Assembly (NCBI GenBank): GCA_013298125.1
Contig: JAAFJP010000001.1
Coordinates: 1 to 64,000 of the forward strand
DNA length: 64,000 bases
From: Cytophagales bacterium
GTDB taxonomy: Bacteria > Bacteroidota > Bacteroidia > Cytophagales > Spirosomataceae
Reading direction: 5' to 3'
The translations under genes and the position numbers were made by a program. Within the stretch, counting starts at the first letter, position 1; each line of letters starts with the position of its first letter. The notes beneath the pieces are model-generated. The model saw only the letters and a list, made by a program, of their open reading frames with translations, had not been told where the DNA came from and ran no database searches. This document shows positions 3,897 through 63,222 of this stretch, piece after piece.

Positions 3897-4280
3897 AGAC
3901 TTGTTGTGAATTGATTATCAGACAGTTAGCATTAAAATTGTCTTTTTGAAAATTTTAAATACCATTGAACATCCCCCTACCCCCTTCAAAGGGGGACTTG
4001 CACGAATGGTAAATCCCCCTTTGAAGGCAGGGCTGTTAAGTTCTGAAAGTCAAGTCAGAATTCAGAACAAGGAATGGAGAATTTAGAAGGAATATTAGAA
4101 TGAAAAATGGGAAAAGTTATACCTTTTTACTTCTCCATTCTGAATTCCTTGCGGCAGCCGTTGCTGTTCTAAATTCTACATTTTTTAGAGAACTTAACAG
4201 CCCTGCCTTTGAAGAGGGTAGGGGGATGTTCAATGGTATCAGAACCTGTAACTGTCTGATTATCAACAGATAACAAGTCT
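3897..4280. repeat. Composite nested palindrome, about 384 bp
   Basis: The whole segment folds on itself in four nested arms. The outermost arm is agacttgtt (3897-3905) with aacaagtct (4272-4280), next to attatcagacagtt / aactgtctgat. Then taccattgaacatccccct (from about 3959) pairs with the run ending caatggta (about 4238). Then ggcagggctgttaagttct (4026-4044) pairs with 4189-4207. The core is a gaattcagaacaaggaatgg / ccattctgaattcc type arm around 4051-4178. A ccccctacccccttcaaaggggg core links it to the G/C-run palindromes found inside mobA, queA and exuT. It fills the gap between the kinase and uxaA, which converge here, so it may also end both transcripts. Confidence 0.8.
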
Positions 4281-6203: not shown

Positions 6204-6878
6204 TTACTTTCCGCTAAAAATAAATCTCTCCTCCATCGTGTTAACATTTATGAGCCATTGGTTATCATTTTTTTGCAATAATTCAATATCTAAATTTTGT
6301 AAAACTTTCATCGGAGATTTTTTACCTTGATTAATGGCTTCTTGCAATTTAGGAAAGATTCTTGGTTCATAGATGGTCAATAATGGTTCTGGAAAATGCT
6401 CATCTGGATTCTCAAATGCGGTAGCATATTTCTCTGAATTTCGATTTTTTAATAAGAACTCAATTGTCGTTTTATCTACAAAAGGCATATCACAAGCTAC
6501 TACAAACCAAGCAACATCAGGATTATGGTGAAAGGCTGAAACAATACCAACCATTGGACTTTTTATTGATAAATCAAGGTCTTGAATATGAGGTAAATCC
6601 GTAGATTGAGTCTTATTGATAGAGACAAAAACATTTAGAAAGTAATCACTTAATAAATCAAAAAGATATTGTTCCTGAGTTTTTCCGTGGTAATTGATTA
6701 GGCGTTTTTCTTCGCCCATGCGGGAGCTGAGTCCGCCTGAGAGGATTAGTCCATACACCTCACCCCCGAGTCCTCTCCTTAATGAGAGGGGAGCATTCGT
6801 TCGAGTAGCTCCCCCTCTAATTTTAGAAAGGGGGCTGGGGGGTGGGGTATCTGTTTTTGTACTATCTTCCATAATCAC
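6204..6878 (-). CDS. mobA: Molybdenum cofactor guanylyltransferase (MobA-type) with a repeat-derived N-terminus
   Basis: A 224-residue nucleotidyltransferase that joins GMP to molybdopterin. From about residue 42 the protein follows the MobA fold: GLILSGGLSSRMGEEKRLINY (nucleotide-binding LxGGxSxRMGxxK), a VVACDMPFVD segment with the metal-binding Asp, and a PEPLLTIYE segment. Residues ~10-41 are not MobA sequence: they are the translation of a palindromic element (6754-6850) and read PPPSPLSKIRGG ... APLSLRRGLGGE. The ATG at 6876-6878 lies inside the end of moaC (moaC stop at 6862-6864), a 17-base overlap suggesting coupled translation. The core is complete, so the enzyme is probably active despite the proline/arginine-rich extension. 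Confidence 0.88.
   Translation of the reverse strand: MIMEDSTKTDTPPPSPLSKIRGGATRTNAPLSLRRGLGGEVYGLILSGGLSSRMGEEKRLINYHGKTQEQYLFDLLSDYFLNVFVSINKTQSTDLPHIQDLDLSIKSPMVGIVSAFHHNPDVAWFVVACDMPFVDKTTIEFLLKNRNSEKYATAFENPDEHFPEPLLTIYEPRIFPKLQEAINQGKKSPMKVLQNLDIELLQKNDNQWLINVNTMEERFIFSGK
6754..6850. repeat. G/C-run palindromic element inside mobA
   Basis: The outer arms are tacacctcacccccgag on the left and ctggggggtggggta on the right. Between them lie two hairpins, tcctctccttaatgagagggga and ccccctctaattttagaaaggggg. The element is entirely within the mobA reading frame and has no stop in that frame. It resembles the elements at 11504-11603 (queA) and 61845-61949 (exuT) in its alternating C runs and G runs. 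Confidence 0.85.
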
Positions 6879-7332
6879 TCTTTCCCCCAGTTTTCAACAA
6901 TAGTTTTGTCTCTTTAATCACGATGTCATGCGAGAATGCTTTGCACATATCATACACCGTCAAAGCTGCAATGCTCGCACCCGTGAGGGCTTCCATTTCT
7001 ACGCCCGTTTTTGCGGTCAATGAGCAAGTACACTGAATAATTACCTCATTATCAATAACTTCCATTTTAAACTTACAAGAGTCCAAACCCAGAGGATGAC
7101 AAAGAGGTATTAAATCAGAGGTCTTTTTTGCTCCCATTGTTCCTGCGATAATTGCCGTTTGGAGGACAGAACCTTTCTTGGTTTGAAGATCCCCATCTTT
7201 AAAGTTCGCCATGATTTCATCCGTCAAAACTACTATGCTCTGAGCCGTGGCGGTACGTTTGGTAATGGCTTTCTCCGAGACATCTACCATTGAAGGATTG
7301 TTGTTGTTATCTAAATGCGTAAAAGATGACAT
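6862..7332 (-). CDS. moaC: Cyclic pyranopterin monophosphate synthase
   Basis: A 156-residue enzyme for the second step of molybdopterin synthesis, turning the MoaA product into cyclic pyranopterin monophosphate. Family signatures run through the protein: PSMVDVSEKAITKRTATA near the start, then KKGSVLQTAIIAGTMGAKKTSDLIPLCHPL, and the C-terminal KTGVEMEALTGASIAALTVYDMCK. Length fits the ~160-residue family. mobA follows with a 17-base overlap, and moeA lies divergently about 190 bases away, making a small Moco cluster. moaA, moaD, moaE and moeB are not in the window and must lie elsewhere if the pathway is complete. Confidence 0.96.
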   Translation of the reverse strand: MSSFTHLDNNNNPSMVDVSEKAITKRTATAQSIVVLTDEIMANFKDGDLQTKKGSVLQTAIIAGTMGAKKTSDLIPLCHPLGLDSCKFKMEVIDNEVIIQCTCSLTAKTGVEMEALTGASIAALTVYDMCKAFSHDIVIKETKLLLKTGGKSDYGR

Positions 7333-10770: not shown

Positions 10771-12054
10771 TTAAGGCAATAGTAATGAAGAATCCCCATA
10801 ACTCAAAAACCGATAATCATTCGTCATGGCTTCGTGATAAACCTTTCGCCAATCTTCGCCAATTAGTGCTGCAATCAAGAGAATCAACGTACTTTCGGGT
10901 TGATGATAATTGGTAATAATGCCTTTGCAAATCTTAAACTGATAACCTGGGAAGATAAAAATCTCCGTTTCTGCCGTGATTTCTTCTGTATTTCTCTCCT
11001 CCATTTCATTCAAAATCGCCTTCAAAGAATCTTCCACCGAAGGCAAATTTTCGTGTTGATAGGGATAGAGTTTTTCTATCAATAATGGAGAATCGTCCCC
11101 TTTCAAAAACTTCACCCCAAACCAATAAATACTCTCCAAAGTACGCATCGAAGTCGTACCAACAGGGATGATATTACCCAAATTTGCTAAGAGATTTTCG
11201 ATATTTTTTTTCGTAAAAATTACTTGCTCATTGTGCATTTTATGCTCAACAATGTTCTCTACTTTGATAGGCTGAAACGTTCCTGCCCCTACGTGTAGCG
11301 TAAGAAAATCTTGCTTAATACCTTGTTTTTCAAGATTTTGCAAAACTTCTTGGGTAAAATGAAGTCCAGCGGTTGGTGCGGCAACTGCCCCTTTTTTTTC
11401 TGAATAAACCGTTTGATAAGTTTCATTGTCAGACTCTTCTGTTTCACGATTTAAGTATGGCGGAAGCGGGATTGTTCCGAGGGCTTGGATGAGGGTTACG
11501 AAGGTGATAACCTCACCCCCAGCCCCTCTCCTGCTGAGAGGGGAGTTATTCGTCCGTAAACCTCCCCTCTCAGCAGGAGAGGGGCTGGGGATGAGGTTAT
11601 CACTCCAAGACAGCTCCACATAATTATTCTCCTCATCAAATATCTCCGCCTTGACTTCCACCTCTTGTCCATCAACTACCAAAACTTGGCTCAAAATATC
11701 ACCCTTTTTCCAACGTTTTCTATTCCCAATCATACACTTCCATACGCACGAGTCCGTAACGTCCATGGCTAAATTAATAACGGGCGTTGGTAGTACTGGA
11801 TGCAATAAAAATATTTGAATAATTGCTCCTGTGGGTTTCTGGAAGTGGATTCTTGCTGGAATTACTTTGGTATTATTGAAAACTAAGAGACTATTTTTGG
11901 GTAAATAATCAGTAATATTTTTGAAAACTGAATGCGTAATTTTCCCTTGTTGATAAACCTGTAATTTAGATTCATCACGCTTGGGCAAAGGGAATTTTGC
12001 GATGCGTTCATCGGGTAAATCGTAGGTATAATCCGAGAGTTTGATGTTTTGCAT
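10771..12054 (-). CDS. queA: S-adenosylmethionine:tRNA ribosyltransferase-isomerase, with an in-frame repeat insertion
   Basis: A 427-residue enzyme that builds epoxyqueuosine from preQ1 in tRNA, using the ribosyl part of AdoMet. Motifs include LSDYTYDLPDERIAKFPLPKRDES, LLVFNNTKVIPARI, APTAGLHFTQEVL, LHVGAGTFQPI and ITNYHQPESTLILLI. Residues ~151-184 (PSPSPAERGG ... SPLSRRGAGGE) are not QueA sequence but the translation of the palindrome at 11504-11603, placed between VELSWS and FVTLIQALGTIPLPPY. With it removed the length is about 393. The active-site motifs flank the insert intact, so a tolerated surface-loop insertion is likely. rarA follows 17 bases later. Confidence 0.95.
   Translation of the reverse strand: MQNIKLSDYTYDLPDERIAKFPLPKRDESKLQVYQQGKITHSVFKNITDYLPKNSLLVFNNTKVIPARIHFQKPTGAIIQIFLLHPVLPTPVINLAMDVTDSCVWKCMIGNRKRWKKGDILSQVLVVDGQEVEVKAEIFDEENNYVELSWSDNLIPSPSPAERGGLRTNNSPLSRRGAGGEVITFVTLIQALGTIPLPPYLNRETEESDNETYQTVYSEKKGAVAAPTAGLHFTQEVLQNLEKQGIKQDFLTLHVGAGTFQPIKVENIVEHKMHNEQVIFTKKNIENLLANLGNIIPVGTTSMRTLESIYWFGVKFLKGDDSPLLIEKLYPYQHENLPSVEDSLKAILNEMEERNTEEITAETEIFIFPGYQFKICKGIITNYHQPESTLILLIAALIGEDWRKVYHEAMTNDYRFLSYGDSSLLLP
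11504..11603. repeat. 100-bp palindromic element inside queA
   Basis: An almost perfect inverted repeat: gtgataacctcacccccagc (from 11504) and the run ending gctggggatgaggttatcac (11603), with inner arms cccctctcctgctgagaggg / ccctctcagcaggagagggg. The length adds no frameshift, and the queA frame reads through without a stop. It is a close relative of the element in mobA. Confidence 0.92.
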
Positions 12055-12702: not shown

Positions 12703-12747
12703 ATTTAGGGATTGGGGATTTGGGAATTAGGGATTGGGGGAAATCCT
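12703..12747. repeat. Iterated-word tract (attgggga family)
   Basis: Repeats of agggattgggg, atttggg and aattaggg immediately before the start codon of the DUF1648-like gene. It is complementary in type to tracts near 13000-13046. Confidence 0.6.
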
Positions 12748-12902
12748 TTCTGTCCAAAACCACCTCTTATTTATGTAAAATTAAAGTACAAAATTACTTC
12801 ACAAGCTCCAAGATTTCTAATGAAAACCAGTAAATAGAAATTATGAAATAAAAATTAGTTGTTATGACAATTAATTTCTCAAAAAAATGTAGATTTGCGG
12901 TG

Positions 12903-13046
12903 TGAGATTAGGGATTAGGTAATTGGGGATTGGGGATTAGGTAATTGACTCAAGTTAAAAATTTTTACTTTTTGGAAAGTGAATTTTATAGTTATCTAAT
13001 CCCTAATTACCTAATCCCTAATTACCCAATCCCCAATCCCTAAAAT
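12903..13046. repeat. Inverted pair of iterated-word tracts before the adenosyltransferase gene
   Basis: Left tract (12903-12947): gattagggattaggtaattg, ggattggggattaggtaatt. Right tract (about 12995-13046): ctaatccctaattacctaat, ccctaattacccaatcccca. The two are inverted and built from degenerate attaggta / attgggga words, so the pair can form a long imperfect hairpin ending 8 bases before the ATG at 13049. Confidence 0.75.
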
Positions 13047-13048
13047 AC

Positions 13049-13597
13049 ATGAAGATTTATACAAAAACAGGCGACGGTGGTCAGACTTCCTTAGTGGGAG
13101 GTACGAGAGTTTCAAAAACTGAACTCAGAATTGAGGCTTATGGAACGGTTGATGAACTCAATTCGTACATCGGTTTAGTCCGTGACCAAGAGGTAAATAA
13201 TGGTCGAAAAGAAATTTTGAAGGAAATTCAAGACCGACTTTTTACGATTGGCTCAATTTTGGCATCAGAACCAGAACAGACCAAAAAACGCATTCCAGAC
13301 CTCCACGAGAGCGATATTGAACTCTTGGAAAAGGAAATGGATAAGATGGACAAAAGTCTCGAACCGATGCGTTTTTTCATCCTTCCAGGCGGACATCAAT
13401 CGGTTTCGTTCGGGCATTTGGCAAGAACTGTTTGCCGTAGAGCCGAAAGAATTGTACTTCGTCTTTCAGGAGAATCAGAAGTTAATGTTTTGGTAGTCAG
13501 ATACTTAAACAGACTTTCAGACTACCTTTTTGTGCTTTGCAGAATGATGATTAAAGATTTAAATATAGAAGAAATCTCGTGGAAACCGAGGGTTTAG
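13049..13597 (+). CDS. Cob(I)alamin adenosyltransferase, PduO type
   Basis: A 182-residue cytosolic enzyme that transfers adenosyl from ATP to reduced corrinoid to make adenosylcobalamin. It opens with MKIYTKTGDGGQTSLVGG, the ATP-binding motif of the PduO/EutT fold, followed by RIEAYGTVDELNSYIG and the C-terminal CRRAERIVLRL and RYLNRLSDYLFVLCR helices. Length fits. No cobalamin biosynthesis genes are nearby, so the protein probably serves corrinoid salvage for B12-dependent enzymes elsewhere. The start codon sits directly behind a palindromic tract. Confidence 0.94.
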   Translation: MKIYTKTGDGGQTSLVGGTRVSKTELRIEAYGTVDELNSYIGLVRDQEVNNGRKEILKEIQDRLFTIGSILASEPEQTKKRIPDLHESDIELLEKEMDKMDKSLEPMRFFILPGGHQSVSFGHLARTVCRRAERIVLRLSGESEVNVLVVRYLNRLSDYLFVLCRMMIKDLNIEEISWKPRV

Positions 13598-13786
13598 GGA
13601 TTGGTTTATTGGTTATTAGTTTATTGGTTACTGGTTTATTGATTATGAGTTAATTGGTATTAGAATTTAGTTGCAAATAGTTTTTAAGTATTTCAACCCA
13701 ATCAATAACCAATAAACTGATAAACCAGTAACTAATAAACCAGTAACCAATAAACCAGTAACCAATAAACCAATAACCAAAATAAC
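13598..13786. repeat. Inverted iterated-word array (ttattggttactgg family)
   Basis: About 13600-13645 holds repeats of ttattggttattagtttatt and ttggttactggtttatt. About 13692-13786 holds their complements, aataaccaataaactgataa, accagtaactaataaaccag and so on, five or more units. The unit is about 14 bases. The same words occur at 22493-22597. The array fills the whole gap between the adenosyltransferase and ilvE. Confidence 0.8.
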
Positions 13787-14851
13787 ATGACAGATACCTT
13801 GCAAATAGACATTCAGCCAATTGAGAAATCGAGAATTGATACGGTTGATTTTAACAACCTTGTTTTTGGGCGTTCGTTCTCCGACCATATGCTGTCGGTT
13901 GATTTTGCCAGTGGAGAATGGCAAACGCCTCAAATTATTCCTTTTGGCGACATTACTTTCTCGCCCGCTATGATGTCTCTACATTACGGACAAGCGATTT
14001 TTGAAGGAATGAAAGCCTACAAAAGCCCCGAGGGAGATATTTTAGTTTTTCGTCCAGAAGAAAACTGGAAGCGTCTGAACAAATCAGCCGTGCGTATGTG
14101 TATGCCCGAAGTGCCAGAAGAAATCTTTATGGAAGGCTTATCAGAATTGTTACGCATTGATTCTGAGTGGATTCCTGCCAAAGAAGGCTGTTCGATGTAC
14201 ATTCGCCCTTTTATGTTCTCTACGGATGAATACGTGGGGGTGAGTCCATCGAAGACTTATAAATTCATGATTTTTACTTGTCCAGTTGGGGCATATTACA
14301 CCAAGCCTATTCGTGTACGAGTTGAAACAAAATATATTCGTGCCGCTCACGGGGGCGTAGGTTTCTCGAAAAATGCGGGTAATTATGGAGCATCTTTATA
14401 CCCAACTAAATTGGCATCTGATGCAGGTTATGACCAAATCATTTGGACAGATGCCTCAGAGCATCGTTATGTCGAAGAAGCGGGAACGATGAACTTGATG
14501 TTTATCATTGATGATAAATTGGTAACTGCCCCAACGGGAGATACCATCTTGGACGGTGTAACTCGTAAATCAGTAATTCAGGTTGCTCGTGATATGGGTG
14601 TGGAGGTTGAAGAACGACCATTATCTATCAAAGAATTGACCGAAGGCATCGTTTCTGGAAAAGTTCAAGAGGTATTCGGAGCGGGAACAGCGGCAGTAAT
14701 TGCTCCTATCTCAACAGTTGGTTATGAGGGCGTGGACTATGAATTGCCAGAACGTCCAGCGGATGCTTTTTCGAGAAAAGTTTATACAGAAATTGACAAT
14801 ATCAAAACTGGAAAAATCACAGATACTCGTGGGTGGGTGATGAAAATTTAG
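13787..14851 (+). CDS. ilvE: Branched-chain amino acid aminotransferase
   Basis: A 354-residue class IV PLP aminotransferase that reversibly transaminates leucine, isoleucine and valine. The fold-type IV segments are clear: ISPAMMSLHYGQAIFEGMKAY-like region around residues 64-82, R-rich YIRPFMFSTDEYVGV, GGVGFSKNAGNYGASL with the likely PLP lysine K195, EEAGTMNLMFII and the TGDTILDGVTRKSVIQ phosphate-binding segment. Length matches eukaryote-like bacterial BCATs. The upstream array of 14-base words ends right at the ATG. A strong terminator follows at 14935-14973. Confidence 0.96.
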   Translation: MTDTLQIDIQPIEKSRIDTVDFNNLVFGRSFSDHMLSVDFASGEWQTPQIIPFGDITFSPAMMSLHYGQAIFEGMKAYKSPEGDILVFRPEENWKRLNKSAVRMCMPEVPEEIFMEGLSELLRIDSEWIPAKEGCSMYIRPFMFSTDEYVGVSPSKTYKFMIFTCPVGAYYTKPIRVRVETKYIRAAHGGVGFSKNAGNYGASLYPTKLASDAGYDQIIWTDASEHRYVEEAGTMNLMFIIDDKLVTAPTGDTILDGVTRKSVIQVARDMGVEVEERPLSIKELTEGIVSGKVQEVFGAGTAAVIAPISTVGYEGVDYELPERPADAFSRKVYTEIDNIKTGKITDTRGWVMKI

Positions 14852-15000: not shown

Positions 15001-15070
15001 TACTGTAGCTCGAAGTGGTACTTCGAGAGTCGGACTCCAACGTCTCGAAGTACCACTTCGAGCTACAGTA
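15001..15070. repeat. ctgtagctcgaa palindrome, copy 1
   Basis: tactgtagctcgaagtggta with cttcgag (15001-15027) pairs perfectly with ctcgaagtaccacttcgagc plus tacagta (15044-15070) across a 16-base loop. A second copy at 39502-39581 shares the outer arms but differs inside the stem. It lies downstream of the minus-strand regulator gene. Confidence 0.92.
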
Positions 15071-15756: not shown

Positions 15757-15857
15757 TTTTTTAGGTTTTAGGTGTTGGGTTTTAGGGGATAGGTGTTTAG
15801 GATTAGCTTCTTACTGCCAATCCCTAACACCTAATCCCTAAAACCTAACACCTACAA
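15757..15857. repeat. ttaggtgttagg palindrome overlapping the kinase stop codon
   Basis: Left tract ttaggttttaggtgttgggt (from about 15760) and right tract ccctaacacctaatccctaa, aacctaacacctac (to about 15857). The right arm encodes the last residues VGVRF and the stop of the kinase on the minus strand. Confidence 0.75.
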
Positions 15858-21280: not shown

Positions 21281-22495
21281 ATGAAAAAGATTTTACTCGC
21301 ATTCTTTACCGTTGCTTCGCTTACCCTTTTGGGTGCAGGACCAACCACGCCACGCAAAAATAATGCTCCAAAACGCATCAAAGCGGATTCTTCCATTACA
21401 CAAATTATTGAAAGTTTCACGCTGAGATTTGCCCCTGATAAACGTACAGCCATTTTCCAAATTGATGCTTTCAAACAAAATAACCAACTGATTCTGACGG
21501 GTCGGACGAATTTATTTGGAGCAAAAAGTTTTTTGCTTGATAGATTGAAAACCGAAAAAGTACCCATCGTTGATGAAGTAAAAACCCTCCCAGAAGCTGA
21601 ATTGGAAGATAAAGTCTATGGTTTGGTGGAGGTTTCGGTTTGTAATATTCGCTACTCACCTAAGCATTCGGGCGAGATGGCTTCGCAGGCTTTGATGGGT
21701 ACGCCTCTCAGAATTTTGGAAAGAGAGGACAATGGTTGGCTTTTAGTCCAAACGCCCGACCAATACATTTCGTGGGTGGACAGAGGAGCAATCACGATGA
21801 TGAATAAGGATGGAATTGACCGTTGGAAAAATGCTCCTAAAATCATTTACACTCGTGCCTACGGTTCGGCTTATTCAGAAGCTAATGAAGAATCTGCGAC
21901 AGTTTCGGATTTAGTAGCGGGTTGTATGATGGAGTTAATTTCGGAAGTTGGAGAATTTTATCAAGTACAATTTCCAGACCAACGACAAGGCTATGTCTCT
22001 AAACGTGAGGCAAATACGTATAACCAATGGCTCGCTGGATTGAGTGCAACGGAGGAAAATTTAGTAAAAACATCAAAGCGAATGATGGGAATTCCGTACT
22101 TATGGGGTGGTACATCTTTCAAAGGCGTTGATTGTAGTGGGTTTACCAAAACGGTTTATTTTTTGAATGGAATCGTATTGCCAAGAGATGCGTCTCAACA
22201 AGTTTCTGTTGGTGAAACGATTGATAAAACGGGTAATTGGTCTGATTTGAAACCAGGAGATTTATTATTTTTTGGAGAAAAAAGAGAGGATGGTTCAGAG
22301 AAAGTCGTTCACGTAGCGATGTGGTTGGGTAATGGTGAATACATCCACGCCTCGGATAAAGTACGGGTGAATAGCATGATTGCGACAGCCCCAAATTATG
22401 ATGATTATAACGCCAAAAGATACCTTCGTGCCAAGAGAATTTTGAAAACGGGCATGGCGGGAGTTGGGACTTTGAAGGAGAATGTGGTGTATTAG
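21281..22495 (+). CDS. NlpC/P60 (C40) cell-wall peptidase with SH3-like domains
   Basis: A 404-residue secreted enzyme. A signal peptide (residues 1-20, KKILLAFFTVASLTLLGAG) is followed by a region with two SH3-like beta domains (about 100-250) and the C40 catalytic domain at the C-terminus: MGIPYLWGGTSFKGVDCSGF with nucleophile C285, KPGDLLFFG, and HVAMWLGNGEYIHAS with H344. The layout resembles YkfC-type gamma-D-glutamyl-diamino-acid endopeptidases, which cut L-Ala-D-Glu from wall peptides. The dipeptide epimerase at 41609-42628 would use that product. It is divergent from a serine hydrolase gene. Confidence 0.93.
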   Translation: MKKILLAFFTVASLTLLGAGPTTPRKNNAPKRIKADSSITQIIESFTLRFAPDKRTAIFQIDAFKQNNQLILTGRTNLFGAKSFLLDRLKTEKVPIVDEVKTLPEAELEDKVYGLVEVSVCNIRYSPKHSGEMASQALMGTPLRILEREDNGWLLVQTPDQYISWVDRGAITMMNKDGIDRWKNAPKIIYTRAYGSAYSEANEESATVSDLVAGCMMELISEVGEFYQVQFPDQRQGYVSKREANTYNQWLAGLSATEENLVKTSKRMMGIPYLWGGTSFKGVDCSGFTKTVYFLNGIVLPRDASQQVSVGETIDKTGNWSDLKPGDLLFFGEKREDGSEKVVHVAMWLGNGEYIHASDKVRVNSMIATAPNYDDYNAKRYLRAKRILKTGMAGVGTLKENVVY

Positions 22496-22597
22496 TTTAT
22501 TGGTTACTGGTTTATTAGAAATTGGTTTATTAGTTACTAATCATCATTATTTTCTAATAACTAATAAACCAATAACCAATAAACCAGTAACTAATCT
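22493..22597. repeat. Inverted iterated-word array (ttattggttactgg family), copy 2
   Basis: ttagtttattggttactggt, ttattagaaattggtttatt and their complements ctaataaaccaataaccaat, aaaccagtaactaatc flank a short centre. The words are the same as at 13598-13786. The array lies between the convergent peptidase and helical repeat protein genes and overlaps the peptidase stop. Confidence 0.8.
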
Positions 22598-39501: not shown

Positions 39502-39581
39502 TACTGTAGCTCGAAATGGCATTTCGAGTATTGTCGAATAGTTAAATTTGGATTCTCGAAATACCATTTCGAGCTACAGTA
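39502..39581. repeat. ctgtagctcgaa palindrome, copy 2
   Basis: tactgtagctcgaaatggca plus tttcgag (39502-39528) pairs with ctcgaaataccatttcgagc plus tacagta (39555-39581). Outer arms are identical to copy 1 (15001-15070), while stem bases differ in a largely compensated way (gtggtac / gtaccac versus atggcat / ataccat). The right arm encodes the C-terminus of the aminotransferase, and its loop holds the stop codon. Confidence 0.92.
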
Positions 39582-40674: not shown

Positions 40675-40747
40675 TTTGGCTTTCGGCTATCAGCAATCGG
40701 CTTTCACGGTAGCAAATTGCTGAAAGCCGATTGCCGAGAGCCGAAAG
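40675..40747. repeat. ggctttcggctatcagcaat palindrome, copy 2
   Basis: ggctttcggctatcagcaat (from 40678) with cggctttca pairs with tgaaagccgattgccgagag ccgaaag. It shares an exact 20-base word with copy 1 (24721-24817). It lies just upstream of the aminotransferase start and downstream of the DUF4846 gene. Confidence 0.88.
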
Positions 40748-40757
40748 AAAAAAAAAA

Positions 40758-59482: not shown

Positions 59483-59675
59483 TAAATAGCCCAACGGGCT
59501 TAAATCCGAATAGCCGTAGGTGCAACCTACGGTGAAATTACAAGCGTGTAAAACAACCCCGAAGAGGGTTGAATCATTAGTTTATTTAACCCTCTTCGGG
59601 GTTGGGGTATTCAAATATCATTGTACCGTAGGTTGCACCTACGGCTATTCACATTTAAGCCCGTTGGGCTATTTT
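59483..59675. repeat. Large nested palindrome P, copy 1
   Basis: Three nested arm pairs: agcccaacgggcttaaat / atttaagcccgttgggct (outer), gaatagccgtaggtgcaacc / ggttgcacctacggctattc (middle), and aaccccgaagagggtt / aaccctcttcggggtt (inner) around a loop with gaatcattagtttattt. About 190 bp. Copy 2 at 60188-60377 is the same element in the opposite orientation. Confidence 0.95.
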
Positions 59676-60187: not shown

Positions 60188-60377
60188 TTTAGCCCAACGG
60201 GCTTAAATATGAATAACCGTATGTGTAACTTACGGTACAGCGTTAATTGAGTACCATAACCCCGAAGTGGGTTAAATAAACGACTGATTCAACCCACTTC
60301 GGGGTTGTTATGTACGCATATAATTCCCCGTAGGTTGCACTTACGGCTATTCATCTTTAAGCCCGTTGGGCTATTTT
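60188..60377. repeat. Large nested palindrome P, copy 2 (inverted)
   Basis: Outer arms agcccaacgggcttaaat / tttaagcccgttgggct, weakened middle arms (gaataaccgtatgtgtaact / ggttgcacttacggctattc), inner arms aaccccgaagtgggtt / aacccacttcggggtt. Its reverse complement aligns with copy 1 along its length, including the loop (gaatcagtcgtttattt versus gaatcattagtttattt). The inner arm differs from copy 1 by one compensated base pair. Confidence 0.95.
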
Positions 60378-60442: not shown

Positions 60443-61843
60443 ATGAAACAATTTTTAAACGAAGATTTCCTTCTCCAAACCCCCACAGCCAGCCGACTTT
60501 ACCACGAGTTTGCGAAGGATATGCCTATCATTGATTATCACAATCACTTACCGCCCGACCAAATTGCTGGTAATAAGAATTTTGAAAATCTTACCCAAAT
60601 TTGGCTCTACGGCGACCACTATAAATGGCGAGCGATGCGGGCAAATGGCATAAATGAAAAGTTTTGTACGGGTAACGGAACAGACTACGCAAAGTTTGAG
60701 AAGTGGGCAGAGACTGTCCCTTATACGTTACGTAATCCTTTGTACCACTGGACGCATTTGGAATTGCAACGCTATTTTGACGAATACGAAACACTGAATC
60801 CAAAGAATGCTAAACGGATTTATGAAGAATGTTCCGCCAAGATTCAAACACCCGAATTTTCTGTGAGAAGTTTACTCTCAAAAATGAAAGTAGAAGTGGC
60901 TTGTACGACAGACGACCCGCTGGATTCTTTGGAACATCATCAGGCAATTATAAAAGATGGAACTTGTAGCACGAAGGTTTTACCCACTTTTCGTCCTGAT
61001 AAATTTATCTTGATTGAGAATCCAAATTTTGCAGATTTCGTGTTAAAATTAGGTTCAATTACCAATCTGGATATAAATTCCTATTCCGAATTATTGAAGG
61101 CTCTTCGGATGCGGGTGGACTTTTTTGCTTCTTTGGGATGTCGTTTGGCAGACCACGGTTTGGAGCAAATTTATGCCATTAATTTTACCGAAGAAACTGC
61201 CAATTTGGTTTTCCAGAAAGTAATTTCAAAACAAAATATCACGTCTCAGGAGGGTTTGACCTACAAATCTGCCATCCTTCATGCTTTGGGTGTGATGTAT
61301 CACGACTTGGGTTGGACACAGCAATTTCACTTGGGAGCGATGCGAAATAACAACAGTCGTGCCTTGCGTACGTTAGGTCCAGACACAGGTTGGGACTCAA
61401 TGGGTGACTGGTCGCAAGCACAGAGTTTATCTAAATTCTTAGGTCGTTTAGATGAAAATGACCAATTGGCAAAAACGATTTTATACAACCTCAATCCAAA
61501 AGAAAATGACGTTTTTGCTACCATGATAGGCAATTTCAATGATGGCTCGATGGCGGGTAAAATTCAGTTCGGTTCTGGTTGGTGGTTTTTAGACCAAAAG
61601 GACGGCATGGAACGACAAATGAATTCGCTTTCAAATATGGGGCTATTGAGTCGTTTTGTAGGAATGCTAACGGATTCACGTAGTTTTTTATCCTTTCCAA
61701 GACATGAATATTTCCGTAGAATTCTTTGTAATCTTTTAGGAAACGAAATCGAAAATGGCGAATTGCCTAATGACATCGAATGGATTGGGCAGATGGTTCA
61801 GAATATTTGTTATTATAATGCGAAAAATTATTTTCAGTTTTAG
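60443..61843 (+). CDS. uxaC: Glucuronate/galacturonate isomerase
   Basis: A 466-residue cytosolic enzyme that isomerises D-glucuronate to D-fructuronate and D-galacturonate to D-tagaturonate. Amidohydrolase-like uronate isomerase signatures: IIDYHNHLPPDQIAGNKNFE (HxH metal ligands), WLYGDHYKWRAMRANGI, CTTDDPLDSLEHH, FRPDK, LGAMRNNNSRALRTLGPDTG WDS and FPRHEYFRRIL near the C-terminus. Length matches UxaC. An exuT-like permease follows on the same strand across a G/C-run palindrome that begins 2 bases after the stop. The dehydratase uxaA lies far upstream. Confidence 0.96.
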   Translation: MKQFLNEDFLLQTPTASRLYHEFAKDMPIIDYHNHLPPDQIAGNKNFENLTQIWLYGDHYKWRAMRANGINEKFCTGNGTDYAKFEKWAETVPYTLRNPLYHWTHLELQRYFDEYETLNPKNAKRIYEECSAKIQTPEFSVRSLLSKMKVEVACTTDDPLDSLEHHQAIIKDGTCSTKVLPTFRPDKFILIENPNFADFVLKLGSITNLDINSYSELLKALRMRVDFFASLGCRLADHGLEQIYAINFTEETANLVFQKVISKQNITSQEGLTYKSAILHALGVMYHDLGWTQQFHLGAMRNNNSRALRTLGPDTGWDSMGDWSQAQSLSKFLGRLDENDQLAKTILYNLNPKENDVFATMIGNFNDGSMAGKIQFGSGWWFLDQKDGMERQMNSLSNMGLLSRFVGMLTDSRSFLSFPRHEYFRRILCNLLGNEIENGELPNDIEWIGQMVQNICYYNAKNYFQF

Positions 61844-61844
61844 T

Positions 61845-61949
61845 AGCCCCCTGCCCCCAGAGGGGGAGTTTACCACAACATAATATCCTAAAATCAATAA
61901 TTATGAGTTTAAAATCGGAATCAACTCCCCCTCTGGGGGTAGGGGGGCT
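61845..61949. repeat. G/C-run palindrome spanning the uxaC end and the permease start
   Basis: Left arm agccccctgcccccagaggg plus ggagttt (61846-61872) and right arm aactccccctctgggggtag plus gggggct (61923-61949). The loop of about 50 bases contains the ATG (61903) used by the permease. It belongs to the same C-run/G-run class as the elements in mobA and queA. Confidence 0.92.
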
Positions 61950-63222
61950 TTCAATCGGAAAGTACCGCTGGACAATCGTAGCATTGCTATTTTTTGCCAC
62001 CACCATCAACTACCTCGACCGTCAAGTGATTGGTCTATTAAAACCTACGCTCGAAAAGCAATTTAGCTGGTCTGAAAAAGATTACAGCTATATCGTGATC
62101 TCCTTTCAAGCTGCCTACGCATTCAGTTTGTTAGTTTTTGGAGGAATTATTGACAAAATCGGAACAAAATCTGGTTATATTGTTTCCATTATTATGTGGA
62201 GTTTGGCGGCAATTGCTCATGCTTTTGCTAAATCAACTTTTGGATTTGGCGTTGCCCGTGCGGCATTGGGTTTGGGTGAGGCAGGAAATTTTCCAGCCGC
62301 CATTAAGGCAACTGCCGAGTGGTTTCCGAAGAAAGAGAGAGCCTTAGCCACAGGAATTTTCAACTCAGGGGCAAATATTGGGGCGGTCGTCGCTCCCGTC
62401 TTAGTACCTTGGATTTTGGGGATTTATGGTTGGGAAATGGCATTTATTGTAACGGGAGCAATTGGTTTTGTATGGCTAATTTTTTGGTGGATTTACTACG
62501 AAAAACCCTCTAATCAACCCAAATTAAGCAAAGAAGAATTTGATTATATTCACAGTGATAACGAAGAAGTAGATGCAAACGAAAAACCTGTGGCATGGTT
62601 AAAACTCTTCGGAATTCGTCAGACTTGGGCATTCTTTTTTGGTAAAATGCTTACCGACCCAATTTGGTGGTTTTTCCTATTCTGGTTGCCTTCGTATTTT
62701 TCAACAACCTTCAATTTAGACTTAAAAAAACCAAGTTTACCCTTGATTATTGTTTATACCGCCACAACGATTGGTAGCATCGGAGGCGGATATTTATCTG
62801 GATATTTCATTAAAAAGGGCTGGCAAATTCATAAAGCCCGCAAGATTTCGATGTTGATTTTTGCGATATGCGTTGTACCCATCATGGCGGCTCGTTACGC
62901 TACGGATATATGGCAGGCGGTGGCTCTTATCAGCTTGGCGGCGGCGGCTCATCAGGCATGGAGTGCTAATATCTATACGGTTGCCTCGGATATGTTCCCA
63001 AAGAAAGCCATCAGTTCTGTAATTGGTATTGGTGGAATGGCTGGTTCAGTTGGCGGGATTGTTTTTCCTTTGATAGTAGGCTCATTATTAGATAGTTACA
63101 AAGCATCAGGTGATATAAATTCGGGGTATAATATCATCTTTTTGATGTGTGGAAGTGCGTATCTATTGGCATGGTTTATTATGAATTTCTTTGCTCCTAA
63201 GAATGAGCGGGTGGTGATTTAG
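61903..63222 (+). CDS. exuT: MFS hexuronate transporter (ExuT-like)
   Basis: A 439-residue major facilitator of the anion:cation symporter group with 12 predicted membrane helices. It has the MFS signatures DRQVIGLLKPTLEKQF (first loop) and GLGEAGNFPAAIKATAEWFPKKERALATG, the ACS/ExuT-type segment after helix 4, with FNSGANIGAVVAPVLVPWI. It would import galacturonate or glucuronate for the upstream uxaC product route. Residues ~6-18 (ESTPPLGVGGLS) are encoded by a palindrome; the permease proper begins about residue 19 (IGKYRWTIVALLFF). The element thus supplies the start region, and the original start codon is unclear. Confidence 0.92.
   Translation: MSLKSESTPPLGVGGLSIGKYRWTIVALLFFATTINYLDRQVIGLLKPTLEKQFSWSEKDYSYIVISFQAAYAFSLLVFGGIIDKIGTKSGYIVSIIMWSLAAIAHAFAKSTFGFGVARAALGLGEAGNFPAAIKATAEWFPKKERALATGIFNSGANIGAVVAPVLVPWILGIYGWEMAFIVTGAIGFVWLIFWWIYYEKPSNQPKLSKEEFDYIHSDNEEVDANEKPVAWLKLFGIRQTWAFFFGKMLTDPIWWFFLFWLPSYFSTTFNLDLKKPSLPLIIVYTATTIGSIGGGYLSGYFIKKGWQIHKARKISMLIFAICVVPIMAARYATDIWQAVALISLAAAAHQAWSANIYTVASDMFPKKAISSVIGIGGMAGSVGGIVFPLIVGSLLDSYKASGDINSGYNIIFLMCGSAYLLAWFIMNFFAPKNERVVI

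Follow-up and report, generated by a model that had tools for sequence, protein, structure and literature searches.

Palindromic repeats that are translated as part of host proteins have been met before. The Rickettsia palindromic elements (RPEs) are described as palindromic repeats lying in frame within unrelated conserved protein genes (PMC10969869). Intragenic REPs, present in several phyla, comprise hairpin singlets and inverted dimers that are mostly intergenic, some being in frame and encoding 20–30 amino acids; their hosts include UvrA, tRNA synthetases and a photolyase, and two Xanthomonas recB genes were hit at about the same site (PMC3733652). The CGTC class of REPs is described from Bacteroidetes, seemingly lacks a dedicated transposase and has a tag at one stem end, a stem of 8–9 bp and complementary A-T in the first two positions (PMC3733652). 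A further system of relevance is the EDxHD homing family, to which a DUF559 gene of Thermosynechococcus was assigned in a section on intein-containing genes (PMC9403480).

The palindrome described here, within queA of a freshwater bacterium that groups with Arcicella among its named relatives, resembles the RPEs in being repeated in the genome, lying in frame in unrelated conserved genes and being missing from orthologues. Unlike theirs, its family occurs in another phylum, and a nuclease bounded by the same arms is its candidate partner. The first RPEs are reportedly about 150 bp long; the queA-type repeat is shorter, at 90 bp, and the likeness drawn here is one of kind. Translated in-frame palindromes are known already from RPEs and intragenic REPs; what is unexpected is a DUF559 protein as candidate mover. 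An earlier note, written from the letters of this DNA alone, had drawn the parallel with RPEs, aptly for the translated form, but had not foreseen a mobilizing enzyme.

The DNA analysed is a single stretch of 64,000 nucleotides, referred to as the window, whose features are collected in Table 1. The 427-aa ORF that hosts the palindrome is QueA by NCBIfam NF001140 (345 bits against a cut-off of 324), and the best-matching stretch picks up again at residue 185. The 100-bp inverted repeat that the earlier note had placed in this gene is real, with a fold far more stable than that of shuffles, and the frame runs through it without a stop: its arms (11504–11552 and 11555–11603, 49 nt each) are 92% complementary around a 2-nt spacer. 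The minus strand folds at −53.7 kcal/mol as DNA (z −16.3) and at −95.4 as RNA (z −15.7), and none of 200 shuffles was equally stable in either case. The palindromic symmetry does span 100 bp, but comparison with 20 other copies limits the repeat proper to 90 bp, AACC...GGTT, or 30 codons; the GTGAT/ATCAC beyond its ends is additional symmetry local to the queA site. Of the roughly 34 residues said to be added, 30 come from the repeat and a few more from its edges. RNA folding predicts a 42-bp hairpin in the queA mRNA, which ribosomes would need to melt. In an AlphaFold model of QueA (18 sequences, mean pLDDT 76.7) insert residues 155–179 score below 50 and show no structure; residues 195–227 likewise fall below 50, so that the model is consistent with the insert being a flexible loop.

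Table 1. Palindromic features of the window and in-frame members of the repeat family in this genome
Feature	Position	Strand	Source
queA, tRNA preQ1(34) S-adenosylmethionine ribosyltransferase-isomerase, 427 aa, host gene	10771..12054	-	
Palindromic element: inverted arms AACCTCACCCCCAGCCCCTCTCC-loop-GAGAGGGGAG, 16-nt core; in-frame open in queA as NLIPSPSPAERGGLRTNNSPLSRRGAGGEV	11509..11598	-	
Left outer symmetric flank GTGAT	11504..11508	.	
Right outer symmetric flank ATCAC	11599..11603	.	
Second copy of the same family, more decayed; open in N-terminal part of MobA-like ORF (6207-6893)	6756..6848	-	
Related GC-hairpin palindrome of another subtype, GCCCCCTGCCCCCAGAGGGGG; overlaps start of MFS-like ORF	61829..61964	+	inverted-repeat scan
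Related GC-hairpin subtype ATCCCCCTACCCCC..., arms 213 nt apart	3959..4239	.	inverted-repeat scan
In-frame doublets, one per host: QueA; YccS/FUSC-like transporter; MutS2; PSCyt/DUF1553 protein; molybdopterin oxidoreductase			
In-frame doublets, two per host: HyuA-HyuB-like ORF; DUF4011 helicase; CusA-OEP ORF			
In-frame doublets, other hosts: RND-TolC ORF; molybdopterin/pyridine-nucleotide oxidoreductase ORF; class-V aminotransferase			
In-frame single arms (5): LeuRS; DASH cryptochrome; MetRS; histidine kinase; TPR protein			

The segment is absent from the QueA of seven other genomes of the genus, eight further Bacteroidota loci and three outgroups. Relatives do without the segment, but their loop at the insert position varies in length and content between species. 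In the protein alignment (19 rows, all compared; loop DNA was compared for 8 of the 19) Herbivorax and Parvimonas show no additional residues, one Arcicella has four separating LSW from SFV, Flectobacillus has about 10, and others have longer stretches. The closest relative (G005) and A. aurantiaca carry in this loop an unrelated palindrome built of 7-nt words (AGGTATG/CATACCT; loci L023 and L026), whose 14-nt perfect inverted repeat is reached by 1 and 2 of 200 shuffles. With its variation among species and a different palindrome in two other Arcicella, the loop is an insertion-tolerant spot, for which relatives offer no clean empty site. Could the segment then be an ordinary low-complexity expansion of the loop rather than an insertion? 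The variable loop length in relatives would suit such an origin, which is refuted by the same 90-bp sequence with sharp ends at many unrelated places, and we regard it as barely credible.

A pattern search of this genome that tolerated up to three mismatches found 193 arms, whereas the reversed pattern, used as a control, gave 2. The earlier note had named beforehand two findings that would speak against insertion, namely the same segment in the QueA of all relatives and a genome with no other copies; with the segment absent from relatives' QueA and 193 arms genome-wide, neither occurred. The many copies and that absence support its proposal of a mobile palindromic family that settles in protein genes. 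A copy census on a subset of the 193 arms (83 sites found by DNA and 10 by peptide alone) yielded at least 82 distinct doublets and at least 16 single arms, with a peak of doublet length at 89–91 bp. The stem is CCCCTCTC/GAGAGGGG with a CCTCACCCC foot. In 52 of 70 doublets the two 5-nt arm loops are reverse complements of each other, where 10 would be expected; the arms are homogenized, the doublet behaving as a single palindrome. Among copies with intact CCTC..GAGG cores, the inverted symmetry runs on for at least 5 positions into the flanks in 13 of 70 (1.8 expected), as if small palindromes were favoured as insertion targets. Within the taxonomic family a repeat match occurs in 29 of 81 genomes and 14 of 36 genera. 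Phylum-wide, the 20-nt arm (up to two mismatches) is found in 46 of 296 genomes, with 185 matches in this genome and at most 15 in every other among those listed.

Two described kinds of repeat do not fit the family. It is not a GTAG or CGTC REP, as the stem-end tag is absent: there is no GTAG, and CGTC or its complement is confined to the core, in 30 of 82 copies. Unlike those REPs, it has the stem and foot given above and, in its larger copies, a DUF559 gene between the arms. A MITE was likewise rejected on its target-site duplication, of which there is no convincing excess (offsets 0–4, lengths 2–9), net target loss being seen instead; the sole direct-repeat signal is 3 nt at one offset, in 6 of 70 copies against 2.2 expected.

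Two further palindromes of the window bear on the earlier note's statement that related elements lie in two other genes there: the second copy and the GC-hairpin of another subtype in Table 1, possibly not the two that were meant. Translation of the former depends on the start codon of the MobA-like ORF. The latter, at the start of an ORF whose MFS-like name is our own reading, resembles by eye the arms that flank DUF559 genes. An arm type like that of the related subtype at the left of the window flanks, again by eye, the DUF559 gene of another locus (L318); between the window's own pair of arms there is no DUF559 reading frame.

Most examined copies are intergenic, and 69 of 82 doublets lie outside genes or at gene ends according to a flank test. 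The family is nevertheless open in frame at 21 places in this genome's proteins (14 doublets, 5 single arms and 2 arrangements of arm–DUF559–arm; hosts of the doublets and single arms in Table 1), mostly reading NLTPSPSPxERG...; a peptide search, as the earlier note had suggested, recovered NLTPSPSPxERG...SPLSRRGxGGEV inside other conserved proteins. There is good support both for the hairpin family and for its open reading frames. Twelve of 13 DNA-found intragenic doublets are in frame, with a chance of 0.16 each and P about 3e-9; the chance is the stop content of 71 other copies, which include the frame-breaking doublet and a peptide-found CusA copy, times a one-in-three length match, and the tally leaves aside L204 and one CusA copy, both found by peptide. 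It measures survivors, and genes destroyed by insertion may escape the flank test. The single frame-breaking doublet (L190, C67:192522-192611 of this genome), whose host gene is continuous in relatives, either stems from an error of assembly or is a rare insertion that was not tolerated. In a penicillin-amidase family protein the repeat occupies the same loop in two genera (L274 and L278) with differing arm loops, and we read these copies as probable independent hits. In this genome the HyuA/HyuB and RND/TolC junctions hold doublets as well.

How do these sites look in relatives that lack the repeat? With joined flanks as query, continuous orthologues from the genus were obtained for 12 of 13 sites, the RND-TolC site being spanned by none. 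At every aligned site the relatives have other residues at the position of the insert, usually variable in sequence and often in length. When DNA was compared at 12 sites with two to three relatives each, every relative had 14–69 nt more target at 11 of the 12; at queA the relatives hold 66, 36 and 3 nt more than this genome. Agreeing lengths were found for YccS (24 nt, three relatives), helicase site 134 (24 nt, three), the aminotransferase (30 nt, three) and a site on C67 (41 nt, two). As three relatives agree on the missing length at YccS, the helicase and the aminotransferase, the loss would most simply have taken place on the lineage of this genome, and it could in part reflect later trimming of loops. 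At the oxidoreductase-ORF site (L237) the loop of the closest relative contains a heptamer palindrome that 4 of 500 shuffles reach. None of seven other loops examined in that genome is clearly a palindrome, and in the two that come closest 25 and 57 of 500 shuffles do as well; the molybdopterin oxidoreductase loop (L238), a candidate for another such palindrome, was rejected as not above chance (186 of 500).

The target loss bears on whether the queA repeat is a REPIN, that is a REP doublet moved in trans by one of this genome's Y1/RAYT transposases, with DUF559 unrelated. The form would fit: as in the REPIN/RAYT system, the queA-type doublet consists of inverted hairpin REPs with homogenized arms, is non-autonomous and has solo arms, the genome has five Y1_Tnp matches, and inverted repeats are common around Y1_Tnp genes (15 of 26). 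Loss of target DNA is not expected of Y1 transposition, however, and the arms lack the GTAG tag. Unlike in REPIN/RAYT, queA-type arms occur at none of 33 Y1_Tnp loci (PF01797; this genome and six relatives; flanks up to 1.5 kb), and this genome's own Y1_Tnp genes sit among quite different palindromes. We therefore consider such a REPIN origin unlikely. The palindromes around the Y1_Tnp (RAYT-like) genes L052 (C6), L053 (C4) and L055/L056 (C6) are GCCCCATCGGGGCGAC; CATAACGAGGGGTTTAAACCCCTCGTTATG; and the CTTTTGAGAAAAG... family.

A different partner is suggested by linkage. Two single arms in one 1324-aa ORF bracket an in-frame DUF559 domain inside IleRS (ileS), and the only other DUF559 match of this genome lies in frame between inverted arms inside a PDDEXK_1 protein, which we name AddB-like. 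Given the density of arms, chance would place inverted arms on either side of a single gene, each within 450 bp, with p about 1e-4. DUF559 occurs in 47 of 101 genomes of the taxonomic family, and among the listed matches with E below 1e-20 (n = 59), 21 lie in ORFs of at least 400 aa; the DUF559 protein of L316, by contrast, stands alone at 125 aa. An inverted repeat across the gene (score at least 34) was found at 28 of 34 DUF559 loci in relatives, 6 falling below, versus 0 of 33 housekeeping controls; the threshold was chosen after the control maximum of 29 was known, and the 34 come from 36 loci, leaving out L323 (partial match) and L342 (short flank). Such flanks are not peculiar to DUF559, since inverted repeats also stand at the 15 Y1_Tnp loci noted above. 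The arms at DUF559 loci differ by genome and have, by eye, a common plan of C-rich foot and GC hairpin. Type-B arms number 34 in G059, whose own DUF559 has type-B arms, 6 in G390, 2 in G381 (both adjoining its DUF559) and 1 in this genome, and also 5 in G060, a genome outside the 47 that have a DUF559 match, and 4 in G036; arm type thus follows genome in part.

The same sites recur across genera. DUF559 occupies the same site of the same gene in IleRS of four genera and in AddB-like, MetH, methylmalonyl-CoA mutase and UvrA of two each; a site at the CoA transferase subunit junction is common to two genera, and MnmE was found once. At this A/B subunit junction an arm–DUF559–arm arrangement yields one fused ORF (L325 in G066, L337 in G079). 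Same-site copies of DUF559 show an identity below, or close to, that of their host genes, which suits vertical descent as well as homing. All 24 aligned DUF559 sequences, chosen from the 36 loci, keep an unchanged E-x-DG-x-x-H motif together with its partner residues, and the profile matches the endonuclease-like 3hrl (1e-31) and 3r3p (3e-5), titled mobile intron protein, which we take to be the homing nuclease I-Bth0305I. By profile, DUF559 resembles a homing nuclease, and it shares with the EDxHD homing endonucleases both the match to 3r3p and conserved gene sites common to genera. Unlike inteins, these elements have no splicing (Hint) domain around DUF559, have GC-rich palindromic bounds and are expected to stay in the mature host protein: a Pfam scan at E 0.001 found no intein family in 11 host ORFs (IleRS of four genera, AddB-like, MetH, UvrA, MnmE, methylmalonyl-CoA mutase and two CoA transferases). 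One study describes DUF559 as Vsr-like and reports that a Caulobacter DUF559 protein is required for an SOS response and was proposed to cause breaks (PMC12907096). In one limited library, as far as its texts were accessible, no literature joining DUF559 to palindromes was found. Beyond Bacteroidota, 12 DUF559 records were chosen from 39 plasmid-collection matches; six have flanking inverted repeats well above shuffles (two each in Sphingomonas, Deinococcus and Pseudanabaena), three are marginal and three have none.

Based on these observations, we infer from linkage that DUF559 is a candidate mover of the arms, and we propose, as the more probable account, that the palindrome in queA belongs, as a miniature and non-autonomous member, to an arm-bounded mobile family that the DUF559 nuclease mobilizes. 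The nuclease would cut DNA, and repair of the break would copy in a stretch bounded by arms, a scheme that fits the lost target DNA, the absent duplication and the sites common to genera. Of the copies in genes, selection would then spare only those that lie in tolerant loops, in frame and free of stops. In queA the palindrome would read as about 30 extra residues, which should stay in the mature protein because no splicing domain is seen. Against DUF559 as mover count the arms in genomes without a DUF559 match: at E 1e-3 there is none in G002 and G007, two Arcicella that carry the repeat family, and G060, with its type-B arms, is a further case. Together with the arm pairs of this genome, which far exceed its two DUF559 copies, these genomes leave some room for another spread of the arms, through recombination and repair alone or through a transposase that is unlinked or has been lost, with DUF559 a captured passenger as in a composite transposon. 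Arm–DUF559–arm, however, recurs in seven host genes and also, with differing arm subtypes, in several genera and phyla, so that one domain, its motif preserved, would have had to be captured again and again; we judge this alternative rather improbable.

What would DUF559-driven mobility imply more widely? Palindrome-bounded DUF559 elements may form a separate and widespread class of prokaryotic mobile DNA, a generalization to which we give slightly less than an even chance. Its members would combine a Vsr-like, homing-type nuclease with target-replacing insertion by break repair, would shed arm–arm miniatures (the queA palindrome and many CCTCACCCC..CCCCTCTC repeats elsewhere) and would persist unspliced and in frame in IleRS, MetH, UvrA and QueA. 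The enzyme behind several REP-like families is an open question, which the repeatable association with DUF559 makes testable at the bench; if true, our proposal would give orphan REP-like families the enzyme that they lack. It would also reveal a route by which selfish DNA adds unspliced segments to housekeeping proteins, the same enzymes being hit again and again in the same loops. For annotation there is a warning, in that LTPSPSPxERG...RRGxGGEV peptides within proteins are repeats.

The window holds other palindromes. Imperfect ones made of degenerate 7-nt words (ATTGGTT, GGGATTA, TTTCGGC) lie at 12704–13044, 13593–13787, 15766–15857, 22490–22595 and 40675–40752, and are similar to the heptamer-word palindromes in the QueA loops of L023 and L026 and in the L237 loop. 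Another palindrome is present in two copies, at 15001–15070 and 39502–39581 (TACTGTAGCTCGAA...TTCGAGCTACAGTA). Two long, related palindromes stand about 0.6 kb apart, at 59484–59674 and 60190–60373 (TAGCCCAACGGGCTTAAAT...ATTTAAGCCCGTTGGGCTA).
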